From contig CALQZS010000001.1 in NCBI GenBank assembly GCA_943349945.1, positions 1-51,338 of the forward strand: a stretch of 51,338 nt of DNA, in the 5' to 3' direction. The notes beneath the pieces were generated by a model. That model did not search any database. It worked only from the letters and a program-made list of their open reading frames with translations, and was not told where the DNA came from. Source of the DNA: Candidatus Nomurabacteria bacterium. GTDB lineage: Bacteria > Patescibacteriota > Minisyncoccia > Phycocordibacterales > SBAW01. Numbering within the stretch: position 1 is the stretch's first letter; each line of letters begins with the position of its first letter. A program made the position numbers and the translations under genes. Shown in pieces: positions 2,668-42,647 of this stretch.

Positions 2668-3567
2668 ATGACTAAAATCATTCTCGCAGTAGTTGCCGTG
2701 CTTGTGCTTTTGGGAGTTGGTGCATACTTCTGGCTTCCTGCTGGGTTTATAGCCACAACCAACCCGCCACCCACAACCACGCCCGACCCAACCACCCCAC
2801 CTGCCGCCACCTCAACTCCGCATGGAGGCAAAGTGGTTATAGGCAAGTCGGTCGAAGGTCGCGATATCGAACTCTACCAATACGGCCAAGGCACTACCGA
2901 GCTTTTGTTTGTGGGCGGCATACACGGTGGCTACGAGTGGAACACGACTCTTGTGGCACACAACTTGATGGACTACCTTGCTGCAAACCCCGAGGCAATT
3001 CCAAGTAACATCAAAGTAACCGTCATTCCTACTTTAAACCCAGACGGTCTCTACAGCGTCGTGGGTACTGCTGAGCGCTTCTCTCCTACTGACGTTCCTT
3101 CATCACAAACAACGGTTATCGCCGGACGGTTTAACGCCAACAAAGTCGACCTTAACCGCAACTTCGACTGCGACTGGCAAGCATCCGCAACCTGGCAAAG
3201 CAAGACCGTAAGCGGCGGCACACAAGCCTTTTCCGAGCCCGAAAGCCAGGCAATTAAAGCGTACATAGAGTCCAACACCCCAGAGGCCGTGGTGGTGTGG
3301 TACAGCGCTGGCGGCGGCGTCTTTGCCTCCAGCTGCCACAACGGCGTCTTGGACGAAACCAAAACCATCACCAACCTCTATGCCAAGGCAGCAGGCTACA
3401 AAGCATCAAACGACTTTGACTTTTATTCCATCACAGGAGACATGGTCAACTGGCTCGCCAAAAAAGAAATCCCCGCTATTAGTGTTTTGCTCACCACACA
3501 CAGCAGCATCGAGTGGGACAAAAACCTAAGCGGCATTACCGCATTGTTTAAACACTACGCACAGTAG
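2668..3567 (+). CDS. M14 zinc-carboxypeptidase family protein, probable pseudoenzyme
   Basis: N-terminal TM; GGIHGGYEWN (HxxE), NPDG, DLNRNF conserved, but WYS replaces WHS and SVLL replaces TVEL of the downstream paralog. Confidence 0.8.
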   Translation: MTKIILAVVAVLVLLGVGAYFWLPAGFIATTNPPPTTTPDPTTPPAATSTPHGGKVVIGKSVEGRDIELYQYGQGTTELLFVGGIHGGYEWNTTLVAHNLMDYLAANPEAIPSNIKVTVIPTLNPDGLYSVVGTAERFSPTDVPSSQTTVIAGRFNANKVDLNRNFDCDWQASATWQSKTVSGGTQAFSEPESQAIKAYIESNTPEAVVVWYSAGGGVFASSCHNGVLDETKTITNLYAKAAGYKASNDFDFYSITGDMVNWLAKKEIPAISVLLTTHSSIEWDKNLSGITALFKHYAQ

Positions 3568-3576
3568 CGCTACTAT

Positions 3577-4431
3577 ATGCGGCGTCTACTTGTTATTGTC
3601 TTAATTCTTATGGCGCTTGTAGGCGTGGGTGTGTGGTGGGCAACAAAAGATGCTCCAGCCCCCGCCCCTGTTGCACCCACCGCGCAAGGCCCCGAGGTTA
3701 CCACTATAGGCAAGTCTGTCGAAGGGCGTTCGATAGAAGCCTACACCTTTGGCCAAAGCGGCAAGCACTTGCTGTTTGTGGGCGGCATACACGGCGGCTA
3801 CGAATGGAATAGTGTCTTGTTGGCATACGAACTTATCGACTATCTAAAAGCAAACCCCGCTGTTGCAGAGGGCGTTACTGTTACCATTATCCCGTCCGCA
3901 AACCCAGATGGAGTGTTTAAAGTAGTAGGCAAAGAAGGTCGCTTTAGCGCTGCCGACGCTTCGACAGATGCCGACACTCTGGCGGCTGGACGCTTTAACG
4001 CAAACGAGGTAGATATCAACCGGAACTTCGCCTGCAAGTGGCAACCAACCAGCACTTGGCGTAGCAAACAAGTTAGCCCCGGCACTCAAGCCTTTTCCGA
4101 ACCAGAGGCCCGCGCCATACGAGACTTTGTCTCTAAGTCCTCGCCAAATGCTGTGGTCTTTTGGCACAGCCAAGCAAACGCCGTCTATGCGTCCGAGTGC
4201 GAGGCCGGTGTATTACCCCAGACACGCGCTGTTATGGAAACCTACGCAAGCGCAGCTGGCTACCCCGCAATACTTTCCTTCGATGCGTACCCAATTACCG
4301 GTGACGCCGAAGGCTGGCTAGCGTCTATAGGCATACCAGCCATCACCGTAGAGCTTGCCGACCACACCAGTGTGGAGTGGGAGAAAAACCTCGCCGGCAC
4401 TAAGGCACTATTTGCGCTCTATAGTAAGTAA
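3577..4431 (+). CDS. M14 zinc-carboxypeptidase family protein, residues intact
   Basis: GGIHGGYEWN, DINRNF, FWHSQ, ITVELADHT; N-terminal TM. Confidence 0.87.
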   Translation: MRRLLVIVLILMALVGVGVWWATKDAPAPAPVAPTAQGPEVTTIGKSVEGRSIEAYTFGQSGKHLLFVGGIHGGYEWNSVLLAYELIDYLKANPAVAEGVTVTIIPSANPDGVFKVVGKEGRFSAADASTDADTLAAGRFNANEVDINRNFACKWQPTSTWRSKQVSPGTQAFSEPEARAIRDFVSKSSPNAVVFWHSQANAVYASECEAGVLPQTRAVMETYASAAGYPAILSFDAYPITGDAEGWLASIGIPAITVELADHTSVEWEKNLAGTKALFALYSK

Positions 4432-25459: not shown

Positions 25460-25489
25460 AGCACCCCAAAAGGGTGCTTTCTTTTTTTC
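25460..25489 (+). terminator. Intrinsic terminator
   Basis: agcacccc-aaaa-gggtgctttctttttt. Confidence 0.8.
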
Positions 25490-25512
25490 ATATAGCGAGG
25501 TACAAGTGTAGG

Positions 25513-26424
25513 GTGCAAAAGCCAAAAATAATAGCCGTGGTGGGGCCCACCGCCTCGGGCAAAACGTCGCTTGGTATCTTCTTAGCCCAAAAGCTCGGGG
25601 GCGAGGTTATATCCGCCGACTCACGCCAGGTCTATAGCGGACTCGACCTGGGCACAGGCAAGGCAACAGAAAAAGAAATGGCAGGTATACCCCACCACCT
25701 GCTCGACGTCGTGTCTCCAAAAAAGCAATTTGCCGTAAGCGACTTTGTGCGTCTTGCAACGCGCGCACATTCTAGCATTCTGCAGAAAGCTAGAATCACC
25801 ATACTAGTTGGAGGCACGGGGTTGTATGCTGATACGTTTTTGGGCCGCATGACTTATGCAGAAGTGCCACCCAACCCGGCGCTACGTGCCAAACTAGAAA
25901 AGAAAACTGCTCAAGAGCTTTTTACAGAGCTACAAACACTCGACCCACGCCGCGCCGCCAATATAGAAAAAGAAAATCCTCGTAGACTTATACGCGCTAT
26001 AGAAATAGCCAAAGCTATTGGCGCAAGCCCAGCGGGCGGCCCCAGCACGGAGCAAAAGTATGACGTCTTGTGGCTGGGCCTAGCCCCCACGCAAGAAAAA
26101 TTGCACACAAACATCCACACTCGCCTACTAGAGCGTATACAGCAAGGTATGGTCGCCGAAGCAAAGCGGCTGCACACGAGCGGACTTTCCTACAAGCGCA
26201 TGGACGAGCTAGGACTCGAGTATCGCTTTCTTGCACGACTGCTCCAAGGCAAACTATCAAAAGAAGAGTTTGTAGTCGAACTCGAGCGTGCCATACAGCA
26301 CTACGCCAAGCGTCAAATACGCTGGCTTAAACGAAACAAAGACATTCGCTGGGTAGGCAGCCCGCCAACAAGTCGGGCAGGCAAAACAGAAGCGCTGCGG
26401 CTGGCAAAAGAGTTTTTGAAATAA
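25513..26424 (+). CDS. miaA: tRNA dimethylallyltransferase
   Basis: IAVVGPTASGKTSLGIFLAQKLGGEVISADSRQVYSGLDLGTGK; LVGGTGLYADTFL; QIRWLKRN. GTG start inferred. Confidence 0.95.
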   Translation: MQKPKIIAVVGPTASGKTSLGIFLAQKLGGEVISADSRQVYSGLDLGTGKATEKEMAGIPHHLLDVVSPKKQFAVSDFVRLATRAHSSILQKARITILVGGTGLYADTFLGRMTYAEVPPNPALRAKLEKKTAQELFTELQTLDPRRAANIEKENPRRLIRAIEIAKAIGASPAGGPSTEQKYDVLWLGLAPTQEKLHTNIHTRLLERIQQGMVAEAKRLHTSGLSYKRMDELGLEYRFLARLLQGKLSKEEFVVELERAIQHYAKRQIRWLKRNKDIRWVGSPPTSRAGKTEALRLAKEFLK

Positions 26425-26462: not shown

Positions 26463-26536
26463 TGGCGGGCGATGAAGGAATCGAACCTTCGCTAACGGTT
26501 TTGGAGACCGTTGTGATACCATTTCACCAATCGCCC
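26463..26536 (-). tRNA. tRNA-Trp (CCA anticodon), 3' CCA encoded
   Basis: Minus strand GGGCGATTGGTGAAATGGTATCACAACGGTCTCCAAAACCGTTAGCGAAGGTTCGATTCCTTCATCGCCCGCCA. Confidence 0.93.
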
Positions 26537-26775: not shown

Positions 26776-27834
26776 CTAGCAGCCTACCTTGGCACACAAC
26801 TTGTTGACGTAATTGCGGGTTTCTTGGTACCCCGTATTGGACACACAAACGGCTGGCCGGGGCGAGGCGGTGCAGTCTACCGCATGGGCCGTACGTGTGC
26901 CGCAGTCCCAGTCACACTGGTAGGCATACCCGCTCGGGCAGCAGGCGCTTTGCTGTACCGCAGATTGCCCGCCATTGTATGCCGCATATGCCAGGGCTAG
27001 ATTATTTTGATTTGCAGCATACACCTGCCCAAAATATGCCACCCCTTTTTGTATCTGGTCGGTAGCACACGCAGTGTCGCCGCTACCGCATGTCTTGCCC
27101 CCGTTTGCGGGCAAAAGCTGCATCAAACCCAAAGCCCCCTTAGCGCTAACAGCACCTGCATTACCGCTGGACTCTGCGGCAATGAGTGCCGCAACGGCGC
27201 CAGTACAGTTTGGCACAGACACACTCTGGCATGCGTTAGAAATTTGCGCACCGTACACACGAGTAACCCCTTCGACGTCGAGCGCTGCTCCGTTTGTGGG
27301 CAGCGGCGTCTGCCCGCCTACATTTACTGGCCCCCCACTAATCCCCCCACGCAAAAAGCTAAACATATCGGTGATGCTGGACTCGCGCGGTCTTTCGCCG
27401 TCGGGTGCACAGGTAAGAGAATTCCAGGTGCCGGTAAGGAAGAAGTTTTTCTTGACCAAAGAATGCAGGATGGTCTGTACCACTAGCCACGCAGAGAGCG
27501 CAATAACAAAGCCGATTATGACGGAGCGGAATATGCCGTGTGCGCGGGTGATGTTTGTAGGATTACCACCCGAGGTAAAGTACAACACCCCAGCCCAGGC
27601 AAAGAGCCCTACCGACAATGGTACCGTCAGCATGAGTAGGAAGTTGATGATGTTTTGGGACAGGGTTACCAAGTCGCATAGGCCGCACTCTGTGGCACCC
27701 AAAGCGTTGCCTGCAGTGACTCCACCGCACGGTACGAGGCCAGAGGGGGTGTGGGGGGAGGTTTGGGCGAAGGCTACAGACGCAGAGAGAAGCAGCGATA
27801 CGCCCACAATTGCTATAAAAGAAAATAGTTTCAT
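26776..27834 (-). CDS. VirB2/TrbC-like two-TM module fused to a lytic transglycosylase (SLT-like) domain
   Basis: Signal peptide; LVTLSQNIINFLLMLTVPLSVGLFAWAGVLYFTSGGNPTNITRAHGIFRSVIIGFVIALSAWLVV; AALIAAESSGNAGAVSAKGALGLMQLLPANGG...ALAYAAYNGG. Confidence 0.8.
   Translation of the reverse strand: MKLFSFIAIVGVSLLLSASVAFAQTSPHTPSGLVPCGGVTAGNALGATECGLCDLVTLSQNIINFLLMLTVPLSVGLFAWAGVLYFTSGGNPTNITRAHGIFRSVIIGFVIALSAWLVVQTILHSLVKKNFFLTGTWNSLTCAPDGERPRESSITDMFSFLRGGISGGPVNVGGQTPLPTNGAALDVEGVTRVYGAQISNACQSVSVPNCTGAVAALIAAESSGNAGAVSAKGALGLMQLLPANGGKTCGSGDTACATDQIQKGVAYFGQVYAANQNNLALAYAAYNGGQSAVQQSACCPSGYAYQCDWDCGTRTAHAVDCTASPRPAVCVSNTGYQETRNYVNKLCAKVGC
27351..27770. repeat. 420-bp duplicated segment, copy A (VirB2/TrbC-like module)
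   Basis: Near-identical to 28338-28757; encoded protein segments look identical. Confidence 0.93.
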
Positions 27835-27837
27835 GTT

Positions 27838-28884
27838 TTATATTGAAGCCCCTGGCAGCTGCAGGTGCCAATGGCTGCCTTCGTTGATAAACAGTGTACC
27901 ATCCGGTGCCTTGTGGGCCGGTGCCCGTGCCCCACCACCAATAGACACTGTCCCTGCAGATGGGTATTTCATAATAACGCTGTCTAAGCTGCCGCCTTTG
28001 CTTATATCAAACGCACTGCCGTTGGTGTGCACATTGCCTGCACCCGAAGTGCCGTGCCCTGTCTCGGTGCCGCCACTTATGTTAATGGTGCAGTTACACT
28101 CGCGTTGCAGCGCCACCAGCCGGTCCACTGTCGTCTTTTGCACACCGTCCAAAGAGGTACACGAACTTTGGTTTGCGTTACTGCAGCCCCCGGTCGAGGT
28201 GTAGGTAAAGCAGGTAGTGCCGCTGCAGGCACCCGCCAATGCAGCACGCGCCGCTTGGTCGGAATATACATCGCCCGTTTGGGCTCGGGGCGTTTCGGTC
28301 GTACCAATTCCACCCGCTCCCCCACTCACTCCCCCGCGCAAAAAGCTAAACATGTCGGTGATGCTGGACTCGCGCGGTCTTTCGCCGTCGGGTGCACAGG
28401 TGAGCGAGTTCCAGGTGCCGGTAAGGAAGAAGTTTTTCTTGACCAAAGAGTGGAGGATGGTCTGCACTACCAGCCACGCAGAGAGCGCAATGACAAAGCC
28501 GATGATGACGGAGCGGAATATGCCGTGTGCGCGGGTGATGTTTGTAGGATTACCACCCGAGGTAAAGTACAACACCCCGGCCCAGGCAAAGAGCCCTACC
28601 GACAATGGTACCGTCAGCATGAGTAGGAAGTTGATGATATTTTGGGATAGGGTTACCAAATCGCATAGGCCGCACTCTGTGGCACCCAAAGCGTTGCCTG
28701 CAGTGACTCCACCGCACGGTACGAGGCCAGAGGGGGTGTGGGGGGAGGTTTGGGCGACAGCGGCTGGCACAAAAAAGAAAAAGAGGGCAACCAGTACCCA
28801 TGCACCAACTGTAAAACGGGCCAACATAGTATGTGCCCCTATCATACCATCCATTTTTTCATATATAAGTAAGCAAAAAGTCAC
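27838..28884 (-). CDS. Same VirB2/TrbC-like module fused to an M15-type (D-Ala-D-Ala carboxypeptidase-like) domain
   Basis: N-terminal module identical to 26776-27834; C-terminus GGTETGHGTSGAGNVHTNGSAFDISKGG...GSHWHLQLPG (H...D...HWH). Confidence 0.75.
   Translation of the reverse strand: MTFCLLIYEKMDGMIGAHTMLARFTVGAWVLVALFFFFVPAAVAQTSPHTPSGLVPCGGVTAGNALGATECGLCDLVTLSQNIINFLLMLTVPLSVGLFAWAGVLYFTSGGNPTNITRAHGIFRSVIIGFVIALSAWLVVQTILHSLVKKNFFLTGTWNSLTCAPDGERPRESSITDMFSFLRGGVSGGAGGIGTTETPRAQTGDVYSDQAARAALAGACSGTTCFTYTSTGGCSNANQSSCTSLDGVQKTTVDRLVALQRECNCTINISGGTETGHGTSGAGNVHTNGSAFDISKGGSLDSVIMKYPSAGTVSIGGGARAPAHKAPDGTLFINEGSHWHLQLPGASI
28338..28757. repeat. 420-bp duplicated segment, copy B
   Basis: See copy A; same length, scattered mostly third-position differences. 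Confidence 0.93.
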
Positions 28885-28913
28885 AGCTTCCAGCTAGGAC
28901 TTTTTGACATTTG

Positions 28914-28996
28914 TGCGCCGGGTTGGATTCGAACCAACGAAGGCCGAAGCCGACAGGTTTACAGCCTGTTGTAATTGACCACTCTACCACCGACGC
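28914..28996 (-). tRNA. tRNA-Tyr (GTA)
   Basis: Minus strand GCGTCGGTGGTAG...ACAGG CTGTAAA CCTGT...GTTGGTTCGAATCCAACCCGGCGC; long variable arm; no CCA. Confidence 0.9.
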
Positions 28997-29066: not shown

Positions 29067-31766
29067 TTACCGCGCAATGTAGTCACTAGCCACAGGAGCT
29101 TTGACGCGGCTGCGGGCACTTTTGCGCACCTCAAAGGTAAATTCACTTCCCTTCATATCCACCGTTACTGCCCCACCCGAGAGCACTCCACGGCTCACCA
29201 TAAGGTGCGCCACTTTGGTTAAGATTTTATCTTGTATAAGCCGGCGCAGTGGGCGCGCACCATAGTGCGGGTTGTAACCCTCTTTCGCCAAAAACTCATA
29301 CACAGCAGGCGTGATGCTGAGTGTAATATCTTTTTGTTTCAATCGTGCAACCACCTCCTTAACCTGCAGCCCCACAATTTCTTGTATTGCTTCGGGCGAG
29401 AGGATGTTAAAGATGATTATCTCGTCGATGCGGTTTAGGAATTCTGGACGGAAGTAGTCTTTGAGCGAAGCATTCACCCGCTCTTTGGCCACTTGGTAGT
29501 TGCGGTTGTCGCTTGCGCCGCCGGTAGCAAAGCCCAACTGTTCCATCTTGTCGATGTACTGCGCGCCCACGTTCGAGGTCATGATGATTATCGTGTTGCG
29601 GAAGTTAACCTTGCGACCCTTTGCGTCGGTCAAGTGGCCGTTGTCGAGCACCTGCAGGAGGATGTTAAACACCTCTGGATGCGCTTTTTCTATCTCGTCA
29701 AAAAGCAGCACCGAGTACGGTCGATGGCGCACCAGCTCGGTCAACGCACCACCCTCTTCGTGACCCACATAGCCCGGCGGCGCGCCGATGATTTTCGAAA
29801 CCGAGTGTTTTTCCATATACTCCGACATGTCCACGCGGATGAGCGCCTTGTCGTCGTCGAACATAAACTCCGCGAGCGCTTTGGTGAGTTCTGTCTTACC
29901 CACGCCGGTTGGCCCCAAAAACATAAAGGATGCTATAGGCCGGTTTGGGTCGGCGATGCCCGCGCGCGAGCGCTTAACCGCATCCGCCACCTTTTGCACG
30001 GCCTCGGTTTGACCCACCACACGCCCCTCGAGCATGCGTTCAATGCGCGACAGCTTTTCTGCCTCTTCCTCGAGCATGCGCGACACGGGGATGCCGGTCC
30101 ACTTAGACACCACCGACGCAATGTCGGGCTCGGTTATTTCTTCTTTCAAAATCCGACGAGTGCTTTGTAGTTTTTTGAGTCGTTTTGTCTTTTGCTCCAA
30201 CTCGCGCTCCAACGCCGGTATCTCGCCGTAGCGGATTTCTGCCGCACGCGAAAGATCTACCGCATTCTCTGCAGAGTCGGCCTCCATGCGCAAGGTCTCG
30301 AGCTCTTTTTTAATATTCTTAATATCCAACAGCACCTGCTTTTCGTTTTTCCAACGCAACTCAAGCTCGCCGGTCTTTTCTTTAAGCTCGGCTATTTCGC
30401 GCTCGATAACTTTGGTGCGTGTTTTTGCCGCACGCTCGCCACCGCCCTCGGGCGGCTCTGCGGCCTCTTTACGGAGCGCCTCTTTTTCTACCTCTAGGCG
30501 CATTATCTTGCGGTGCGCTTCTTCAAGCAGCGGCGGCTTGTTTTCGAGCGAGATGCGCAGCGACGACGACGCCTCGTCTATAAGGTCGATTGCTTTGTCG
30601 GGCAAAAAACGGTCCGGGATGTAGCGTGCCGACAGTTGTACCGCGGACACCAAGGCATCGTCGGTAATATGCACGCCGTGGAAGAGCTCGTATTTTTCTT
30701 TAAGCCCACGCAAAATGGCAATAGCGTCGTCTATCGACGGCTCAAGTGCATACACCGGCTGGAAGCGACGCTGGAAGGCCGGGTCACGTTCGATATGTTT
30801 TTGATATTCGCGTAGCGTCGTAGCACCCACCACATGCAAATCACCACGCGCCAAGGCGGGCTTGAGCATGTTTGACGCATCCATAGCGCCTTCCGCAGCG
30901 CCCGCGCCTATCATGGTGTGTATCTCGTCGATAAAGAGCAAAATCTTGCCCTCGGAACGCTCGATCTCTTTAATAATCGCTTTGAGCCGCTCTTCAAACT
31001 CGCCGCGGTACTTGGTGCCTGCAATAAGCGACCCCAGGTCGAGCGATACCAACTCTTTGTCGCGCAGCGACTCTGGCACATCACCGCTGGCAATGCGCGC
31101 AGCCAAGCCTTCTGCTATGGCGGTTTTACCCACGCCTGGCTCACCTATCAAAATAGGATTGTTTTTAGTGCGACGCGACAAAATTTGTATAACGCGGCGG
31201 ATTTCTTCGTCCCGACCAATCACCGGGTCGAGCTTGTTTTCTTGCGCCATCTTGGTGAGCGAGCGCGTGTACTTGGCCAATGCGCGAAACTTCTTTTGTT
31301 CGCCGCCGGCTGGAGTCTTTGCGGTGCGCAGTTCGCTAAGCGCACGCAACACCGACTCGCGCGTGATGCGAAAACGGTTCAGCGTATCGCGTGCCACACC
31401 CGGCACATCAAGCAAGGATATAAAAAGATGCTCTGTAGACACAAACTCGTCGTGGAGCTCGGTTGCTACTTTGGCCGAACGCTCCAGCGCCTGCACCAAC
31501 TCTGGCGTGAGGTACAGCTGATACGACGGCGACAACACCGAGCCGCTTGCACCCCCCTCCAGCGCCTCGAGCACCGTGTCGGTCAACAGCACCAAGTCTA
31601 TTTCGAGCTTGTCTAGCACGCTGGTCACCAAAGACTCTTCTTGCAAGAGCAAAGCCCCAAGCAAGTGTATAGGGCTAACTTGGTTTTGACCGCGCTCTAC
31701 CGCAAGCTCATGTGCGCGGCGTACGGCTTCTTTTGCTTTTGTGGTGAAATGGTTGAATGGTGGCAT
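29067..31766 (-). CDS. Clp ATPase (ClpB/ClpC family chaperone, two AAA+ domains, long middle domain)
   Basis: Clp N domain, [51 protein letters not shown]. Confidence 0.95.
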
Positions 31767-41277: not shown

Positions 41278-41535
41278 TTAGTATGGAAGCTGTTTACCCA
41301 CTATAGACGCGATAAGTCGCACAATAGCAAACGCGGACGACATAATAAACATTCCCGCCAAACCCCAAAACATGTGCTTTTTGCCGTTAGCTGCTTTGTG
41401 CGAACCTTTACTCAAGCTCCACAAAAATTCAACCAATCCGTACACAAACAGCAAGAGTCCAACCGCAAATAGCAGCGCCATGATCGGGTTAAGCACCTCC
41501 CGAGCTAGCAAGTTAACTATTGCTTCTGCTGACAT
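41278..41535 (-). CDS. Small two-TM protein, VirB2/TrbC-like
   Basis: VLNPIMALLFAVGLLLFVYGLVEFLWSLSKGSHKAANGKKHMFWGLAGMFIMSSAFAIVRLI. Confidence 0.65.
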   Translation of the reverse strand: MSAEAIVNLLAREVLNPIMALLFAVGLLLFVYGLVEFLWSLSKGSHKAANGKKHMFWGLAGMFIMSSAFAIVRLIASIVGKQLPY

Positions 41536-41539
41536 TTAG

Positions 41540-41893
41540 CTAGTATCCAGATGATGGGACTGCAGGCAAGGTAGGTTCTGCGCCGCCCGATATACCAAGT
41601 GCACCTTGTGCCATAGTAATTATCCCCCAAATAGACACCATCACAAACAACGAAACAATGCCAGCAATCATGGTGTTTTTGCCTTGTGCAGCAAATTTTT
41701 TGCCGCCTCGCACATAGTTAAACAAACCATAAAAGAAGACGACCATAGTTGCCGCAATAAGCAACGGTATCAACATGCTCACAATCCCATCAACCGCACC
41801 GACAAAGTCATATACAGGGTCAAGTGTGGGAGCTGCAAAAGCTACCGCCGGAAGCAACAAGAATGCAGGGGCAAGAAGTAAAGTTTTTCTCAT
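41540..41893 (-). CDS. Small VirB2/TrbC-like protein with signal peptide
   Basis: LIPLLIAATMVVFFYGLFNYVRGGKKFAAQGKNTMIAGIVSLFVMVSIWGIITM. Confidence 0.7.
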   Translation of the reverse strand: MRKTLLLAPAFLLLPAVAFAAPTLDPVYDFVGAVDGIVSMLIPLLIAATMVVFFYGLFNYVRGGKKFAAQGKNTMIAGIVSLFVMVSIWGIITMAQGALGISGGAEPTLPAVPSSGY

Positions 41894-41965
41894 ATCAAAT
41901 CTTAAATTAATACATCTCTATAGTAACAAGCTGCACCACGAGCACAAGCCGCGCCTGTGGATAGT

Positions 41966-42211
41966 CTATATGGTTGTAAAGAACGATTTTCTTAGGACAC
42001 TGAGTATCCCCCACACAGACACCAACACAAACAATGCGCCCAACCCCCACACAATCAAATCTCTGCCATATGTTTTGGCTTTAGCGTTTGGGGATTTATA
42101 TACGTATTGTACCAACCCCATAAAAAACACGACCATAGCAACCCCCGCCAATAAGCCTACCAAACTGTTAATAAACTCTATAAGTACGCCTACTAATCCT
42201 GCAAAAGTCAT
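41966..42211 (-). CDS. Small VirB2/TrbC-like protein
   Basis: LVGLLAGVAMVVFFMGLVQYVYKSPNAKAKTYGRDLIVWGLGALFVLVSVWGILSVL. Confidence 0.7.
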   Translation of the reverse strand: MTFAGLVGVLIEFINSLVGLLAGVAMVVFFMGLVQYVYKSPNAKAKTYGRDLIVWGLGALFVLVSVWGILSVLRKSFFTTI

Positions 42212-42221
42212 AGGTTATATA

Positions 42222-42647
42222 TTAGCGGCAAACCCCAGCTCCGGACGAGCCACTTCCTGCTCCAAGGGTGTTTATGGTGCTGGCCACTATCTGCCCCAAT
42301 GTCCACGCCCCTAAAAAGAGCATGATGCCTAAAATCACATAGGTGAAGTTTTTTCGAGCTCTCAATAATTCTTTTGGATTGCCACGCGCCTTCACAAACA
42401 AAAAACCAGAGTAGGTTAAAAATAGTACAGCAATAGGTACACCAAAAATAAGCAGCACATCCAGCATTTCTTTGAGCAGCGAACAGAGACTGCCGACGTT
42501 TAATGGATTTACCAATGTATTTGTGCCGCCTCCGGCGGTGTATGTCTGATCGCTTCCACCTCCAAATTGGGCGAACGCTGGTGCCGCCACAATCAACAGC
42601 AAAAAAGCAAACGCTGTAGCTGTGTAATATTTTATGTAGTGACGCAT
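42222..42647 (-). CDS. Small VirB2/TrbC-like protein with signal peptide
   Basis: LDVLLIFGVPIAVLFLTYSGFLFVKARGNPKELLRARKNFTYVILGIMLFLGAWTLGQIVASTI. Confidence 0.75.
   Translation of the reverse strand: MRHYIKYYTATAFAFLLLIVAAPAFAQFGGGSDQTYTAGGGTNTLVNPLNVGSLCSLLKEMLDVLLIFGVPIAVLFLTYSGFLFVKARGNPKELLRARKNFTYVILGIMLFLGAWTLGQIVASTINTLGAGSGSSGAGVCR

Follow-up and report, generated by a model that had tools for sequence, protein, structure and literature searches.

Two adjacent genes of a Candidatus Nomurabacteria bacterium raise the question of how one membrane module came to be repeated, residue for residue, ahead of two different putative wall hydrolases, and what such an arrangement might be for. 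In the window, by which we mean the whole 51,338-nucleotide stretch of DNA that was analysed, genes A and B form a tandem pair, head to tail, with a gap of only 3 nt between the stop of A and the start of B. The pair lies between tRNA-Tyr and tRNA-Trp, and an Rfam search returned the two tRNAs and nothing further. The features of the locus are as follows:

25474..26424, plus strand: miaA, syntenic neighbour on the tRNA-Trp side
26463..26536, minus strand: tRNA-Trp, conserved landmark on that side of the locus
26776..27834, minus strand: gene B, signal peptide, identical module and SLT lytic transglycosylase domain
26950..27195, minus strand: SLT catalytic domain of gene B, with AESSGNAGAVSAKGALGLMQ and AYNGG motifs
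27343..27768, minus strand: module copy in gene B, 142 residues identical to the copy in A
27838..28884, minus strand: gene A, signal peptide, T4SS_pilin-like two-helix module and C-terminal domain with LAS/M15 motif
27847..28275, minus strand: LAS/M15-like domain of gene A, with ISGGTETGH..H-x6-D (HTNGSAFD) and HWH motifs
28330..28755, minus strand: module copy in gene A, 142 residues identical to the copy in B
28913..28996, minus strand: tRNA-Tyr, conserved landmark on the clpC side
29067..31766, minus strand: clpC, syntenic in nearly every congener with a contig extending that far

The open reading frame of gene A opens with a GTG at 28884 (348 aa from this codon); the likelier start is an ATG at 28827, preceded by a Shine-Dalgarno-like AGGGG. 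The gene B product is 352 aa long. For both genes, hydropathy predicts a signal peptide followed by two transmembrane segments.

Residues 44-185 of A and 23-164 of B, 142 aa running from the end of the signal peptide (AQTSPH...) to ...FLRGG, are identical without a single difference. The corresponding DNA match spans ~27340-27771 and 28327-28758, at a repeat offset of 987 nt, and takes in the 420-bp block (27351-27770 and 28338-28757) to which an earlier note, made from the window's sequence, had drawn attention. That note described an unchanged module with mostly third-position differences and called for a dN/dS comparison; across the 142-residue tract we found 17 DNA differences, every one of them third-position and synonymous (dN 0, dS 0.175, NG86), and a longest exact run of 97 nt. 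Outside the tract, in the signal peptides and C-termini, similarity drops to background within a few codons. The likeness of the two modules far exceeds chance. An assembly duplicate or artefact is ruled out, because the copies differ at 17 sites, their tails and flanks are unrelated, and pairs of the same kind occur in related genomes (G002, G013 and G011).

The earlier note had likened this module to VirB2/TrbC, and profile searches bear this out. Pfam T4SS_pilin (PF18895) matches the A and B modules at 41.8 and 40.4 bits (cut-off 26.6), which disfavours a generic transmembrane anchor unrelated to VirB2. TrbC/VIRB2 (PF04956) is matched by neither gene and falls below cut-off in several homologues; an order-level homologue with the same layout, L156, passes it (29.1 against a cut-off of 27.9). 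As in T4SS_pilin and TrbC/VirB2 pilins, the A and B modules combine a signal peptide with two hydrophobic helices and a basic loop between them, but they differ from these pilins in their fused enzyme-like tail of ~160-200 aa, in a conserved C..CxxC..C pattern and in their position away from virB4. The predicted topology is a helical hairpin with the conserved cysteines on its extracytoplasmic side. An AF2 model of the module likewise consists of two long helices (24-65 and 70-105; mean pLDDT 67, helices ~75-86). Comparison of this model with PDB structures gave no useful match, and a profile match to a GPCR in the PDB was dismissed as chance. In many homologues the module is preceded by an additional N-terminal region of Ig-like pattern (C...LTW.S..A..G.I.G.GPV...Y.GTF.GPGGT..C; L050, L053, L054, L056, L057, L059, L061-L063 and L065-L067).

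The tails of A and B are unequally well defined. That of gene B is a lytic transglycosylase domain, as first suspected, with a Pfam SLT match (PF01464, 1.3e-13) and what reads as the catalytic-Glu motif (ES...GALGLMQ). For gene A, the proposed M15-like carboxypeptidase stood at the level of motif and weak profile match, and found no backing in Pfam, the PDB or structure prediction. Alignment of 13 gene-A-type tails from the order gives the pattern ITGG.E.G.H...SH..G.K.DI ... HW[DH], in which the H, G and D are nearly invariant and most other members have HWD where gene A has HWH. Gene A carries H-x6-D (HTNGSAFD) and a terminal HxH-type site (HWH), which together we take to be the zinc-ligand motif of LAS/M15 metallopeptidases. 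Compared with three M15-type domains, the gene A tail profile aligns with the motif in register (E 6e-4), but at a probability of only 28%; one of the three, in L156, matches Peptidase_M15_3 at 5.9e-16 and is itself fused to a T4SS_pilin module. The tail had no match to an M15/VanY/VanX family model in Pfam or in PDB sequences, its structure model (pLDDT 47, from a three-row alignment) gave no Foldseek match of meaning, and a profile match to a ribosomal protein in the PDB was dismissed as chance. Given the 28% profile probability and the poor structure prediction, we call this tail LAS/M15-like by motif and not a confirmed carboxypeptidase. Gene B holds the only Pfam SLT match, and gene A the only LAS-motif domain, that we found in this genome (98% complete; 664 kb in 8 contigs).

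We compared the locus across relatives drawn from a public genome collection and named there as Ca. Adlerbacteria or other Parcubacteria. The gene order in the congeners examined is clpC, tRNA-Tyr, one or more module-enzyme genes, tRNA-Trp, miaA and parB. Into this fixed setting fall SLT, lysozyme-like SLT_3, CHAP and LAS-like tails, with others resembling 3D-domain or muramidase enzymes by eye; several CHAP and SLT_3 matches lie just below the Pfam cut-off or were assigned by motif, making the classes partly a matter of the reader's judgement. Enzyme type is scattered like shuffled labels on both trees that we built: it needs 17 changes on the module tree (shuffled-label mean 17.1) and 14 on the ClpC+MiaA+ParB marker tree (14.6), or 10 against 10.3 on the latter when SLT and SLT_3 are merged. 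Well-supported sister species carry different tails (G024/G027, G030/G034 and G003/G008), and the SLT tail of G013 is nearest those of G015 and G032, not that of its sister G002. In the window genome (G000), both the SLT and the LAS tail are nearest those of G002, in the same order, unlike the module and the markers, which are nearest G032. The modular shuffling of wall-enzyme tails that the pair had suggested is thus seen at one locus across the genus. In one congener (G026, L172:1171-9405), several kilobases with DNA methyltransferase-like and serine-recombinase-like ORFs, probably a mobile element, lie between miaA and tRNA-Trp.

A wider search for the module and its fused domains, which the earlier note had recommended, detected the family in 256 of the 347 genomes sampled within the order (E <= 1e-15). 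There it is often a short stand-alone pilin-like protein, and in many cases it lies in long frames; several of the long homologues that we sampled end in a LAS-like, SLT_3-like or M15 tail. A draw across the whole phylum met it less often (12 of 145 genomes). In G478, a genome from another order of the class, two such genes lie in tandem, with tails that by eye look CHAP-like and lysozyme-like.

The module also coincides with contig ends. Contigs end inside the module gene in G017, G018, G023, G026, G028 and G029, and probably in G022; six such genomes among 34, against ~0.9 expected from randomly placed breaks, give a Poisson P of ~4e-4, a figure that uses rounded contig counts and a stretch picked after the breaks had been seen. 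This excess suggests repeated or strain-variable modules that short-read assembly does not resolve. The module at first seemed to be missing from G017, G018, G023 and G026; this is an assembly effect, as the contig ends within the module and the tail is present. Short-read genomes may in this way lose module-enzyme genes. Congener contigs that end in the module are L170:3297-3959, L173:5397-6305, L174:2-739, L172:8800-9405, L047:1-452, L071 and L073.

The history of paired modules can be followed in G002 and G013, sister species that both carry an A (LAS) and B (SLT) pair in the same order. A 74-codon module core contains 26 informative sites, each of which unites the two copies of one genome; not one pairs A with A and B with B (quartet site counts 26 to 0 to 0). 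An AU test rejects a tree in which the A copies are forced together (p 0.013), and the longest exact DNA run is 192 nt between the two G013 copies, compared with at most 21 nt in G002-G013 pairs. The module copies of these two species have evolved in concert, by gene conversion or an equivalent homogenisation. The G011 pair, 83% identical over the tract, also groups by genome (100/98), and G360, from another family, has three module-enzyme genes in three places whose modules are far more alike than their tails.

Conversion and recent module duplication both fit the window genome, because its marker-tree sister, G032, carries just one gene (SLT). The gene conversion offered by the earlier note is supported, in the form of homogenised module copies, for G002 and G013; in the window genome it is inseparable from a recent duplication. 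Under the latter account, the anchor was duplicated in tandem not long ago and fused to another enzyme, and a fresh duplicate would stay similar without any conversion. The single gene of the nearest marker-tree relative speaks for this, as does the module dS between A and B (0.175), which is far below that between G000 and G032 (~1.8). However, the A and B tails are each nearest their counterparts in G002, in the same order, which points to an older or imported pair; the ratio of 17 synonymous to 0 non-synonymous changes indicates strong constraint; and homogenisation is independently established in the G002/G013 clade. We consider recent duplication a possible but somewhat doubtful origin, and tentatively infer that conversion made the window-genome modules identical. 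The choice concerns the source of the identity only, and either fits any function.

Among its checks, the earlier note proposed looking in the full genome for VirB4/VirB6-like genes near the pair. A T4SS cluster lies near dnaA, with PrgI (2.2e-10), VirB4 (P-loop_TraG, 2.9e-27), an adjoining pilin and a large membrane protein that lacks a Pfam match and may be VirB6, so that an absence of T4SS or pilus genes, which the earlier note had named as counting against its reading, is ruled out. The virB4 gene (C1:276655) is on the same contig as A and B at a distance of ~248 kb, with a different pilin beside it, and the A/B locus lies among housekeeping genes. VirB4 is present in 31 of 35 genomes of the genus, a near-universality that leaves its co-occurrence with the module uninformative. 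Closer to the pair, 13-14 kb away, is a further T4SS_pilin cluster (41278-42647; two matches above cut-off and one weak), and several congeners show similar spacing between the two kinds of match:

41278..41535, minus strand: second stand-alone T4SS_pilin, 85 aa
42222..42647, minus strand: stand-alone T4SS_pilin/TrbC-like pilin, 30% identical to the gene A module

We favour, at a probability of roughly 0.55, the reading that A and B are VirB1-like accessory wall hydrolases of the Patescibacteria T4SS, mounted on a VirB2-type hairpin and carrying an exchangeable enzyme. Both would be membrane-tethered, outward-facing peptidoglycan hydrolases. Their anchor would comprise a Sec signal peptide, two membrane helices and a short basic loop, with both ends outside; a signal peptide, hairpin and tail in this order are predicted to place the tail outside the membrane. 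By docking or co-assembly, the pilin-like anchor could bring the enzyme to the pilin part of the T4SS, where the tail would cut peptidoglycan locally, in the cell's own wall or perhaps a host's, and so open the wall for the apparatus, the role of VirB1. Tandem anchor copies would be kept alike in some lineages by gene conversion and purifying selection, with the enzyme behind the anchor as a replaceable cassette, and a shared anchor would allow different enzymes to dock at one place. An anchor conserved as a shared interface would account for both the constraint on the module and the freedom in the tail. Arguing against a T4SS role are the ~248 kb to virB4, the housekeeping surroundings and the module model's failure to match the PDB.

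A rival reading is that of housekeeping wall-remodelling enzymes on a generic hairpin anchor, whose pilin likeness would reflect ancestry with no functional link to a T4SS. In the stretches examined, the neighbours of the locus are clpC and miaA and virB4 is not adjacent, and the genome has PBP, FtsW/RodA and MurD-like genes (by eye) for wall synthesis. Yet the pilin signature and the extracytoplasmic cysteines are conserved beyond what a plain anchor would need, in the wider order the family frequently takes the form of a short, unfused pilin-like protein, and random swapping of enzyme class would be odd for an enzyme of the divisome or elongasome; we regard this explanation as unlikely. Alternatively, the enzymes may cut the wall of the host (basibiont) at the contact site, with cassettes swapped to fit the host's peptidoglycan and the locus acting as a determinant of host range. 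At this one locus, sister species seem to differ in the bond attacked (glycan strand, stem peptide, or amide/cross-bridge), a pattern that would be difficult to account for were the cell's own conserved wall the target. Cultivated Patescibacteria depend on hosts, and Ca. S. epibionticum requires its T4SS to grow as an epibiont (PMC10633639). On the other hand, the organism has no known host, swapping may be neutral given that a cell's own wall can be opened by many unrelated hydrolases, and the reach of enzymes that look membrane-tethered would be limited. This host-range reading seems to us unlikely. The apparatus for host or prey contact or for DNA uptake that the earlier note had in mind would be a speculative role as well. 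Equally speculative, and improbable in our estimate, is a constant-anchor, variable-enzyme display in which the pilin docking module is homogenised by gene conversion and the enzyme exchanged to fit the host wall contacted by the T4SS; exchange would then occur between species and perhaps also within populations, as the contig breaks in the module hint.

Returning to VirB1-like hydrolases on a pilin anchor, this reading fits a gap in what is known of the phylum, as most Patescibacteria genomes with VirB2 are without VirB1 (PMC12102498). VirB1 enzymes of Gram-positive bacteria are membrane-anchored (PMC12857230). Among these, PrgK of pCF10, TraG of pIP501 and Orf14 of Tn916 have membrane-anchored extracytoplasmic domains of the SLT, CHAP or LytM type, with two activities per system, as predicted for A and B. 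In contrast to these single multidomain proteins, the activities here are carried by two proteins with identical anchors, or by one enzyme per genome; the anchor is a pilin-type hairpin, and the locus lies apart from the T4SS cluster. Tandem VirB2-like genes also form the VirB2 arrays of Patescibacteria, but members of an array average 25% identity, with a maximum of 54% (PMC12102498), compared with 142 identical residues in A and B, and each copy here carries an enzyme. Duplicated T4SS surface genes that are homogenised or diversified have been described in Bartonella, as concerted evolution (Nystedt et al. 2008, as cited in PMC12102498), and in the virB2 paralogues of Anaplasma (PMC3556328). 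In those systems it is the pilin or surface subunit that varies; in the module-enzyme genes, variation lies in the fused enzyme and the pilin part stays constant.

Each element has precedent, whether T4SS pilins, VirB1 enzymes or T4SS paralogues that evolve in concert. The papers that we read contain no description of enzyme-fused pilins in Patescibacteria, nor of such an anchor kept identical in tandem copies with its enzyme exchanged at a fixed locus, and this combination may be new. If the favoured reading is correct, pilin-anchored exchangeable hydrolases would supply the VirB1 enzyme reported missing from most Patescibacteria, and the wall-opening enzyme would be tied physically to the pilin of a T4SS that is essential in the sole patescibacterial species tested (PMC10633639). 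The enzyme cassette at one fixed locus would also be a readable marker for comparison with host identity.

Two further features of the window involve recombination and tandem enzymes. A serine-recombinase-like ORF (360-1868) overlaps by its 3′ end a tRNA-Gln (1836-1909; by eye), the arrangement expected of a tRNA-integrated element. Next to each other at 2668-3567 and 3577-4431 are two paralogous M14-like zinc carboxypeptidases (by eye), a further pair in tandem that may act on the wall or on peptides.
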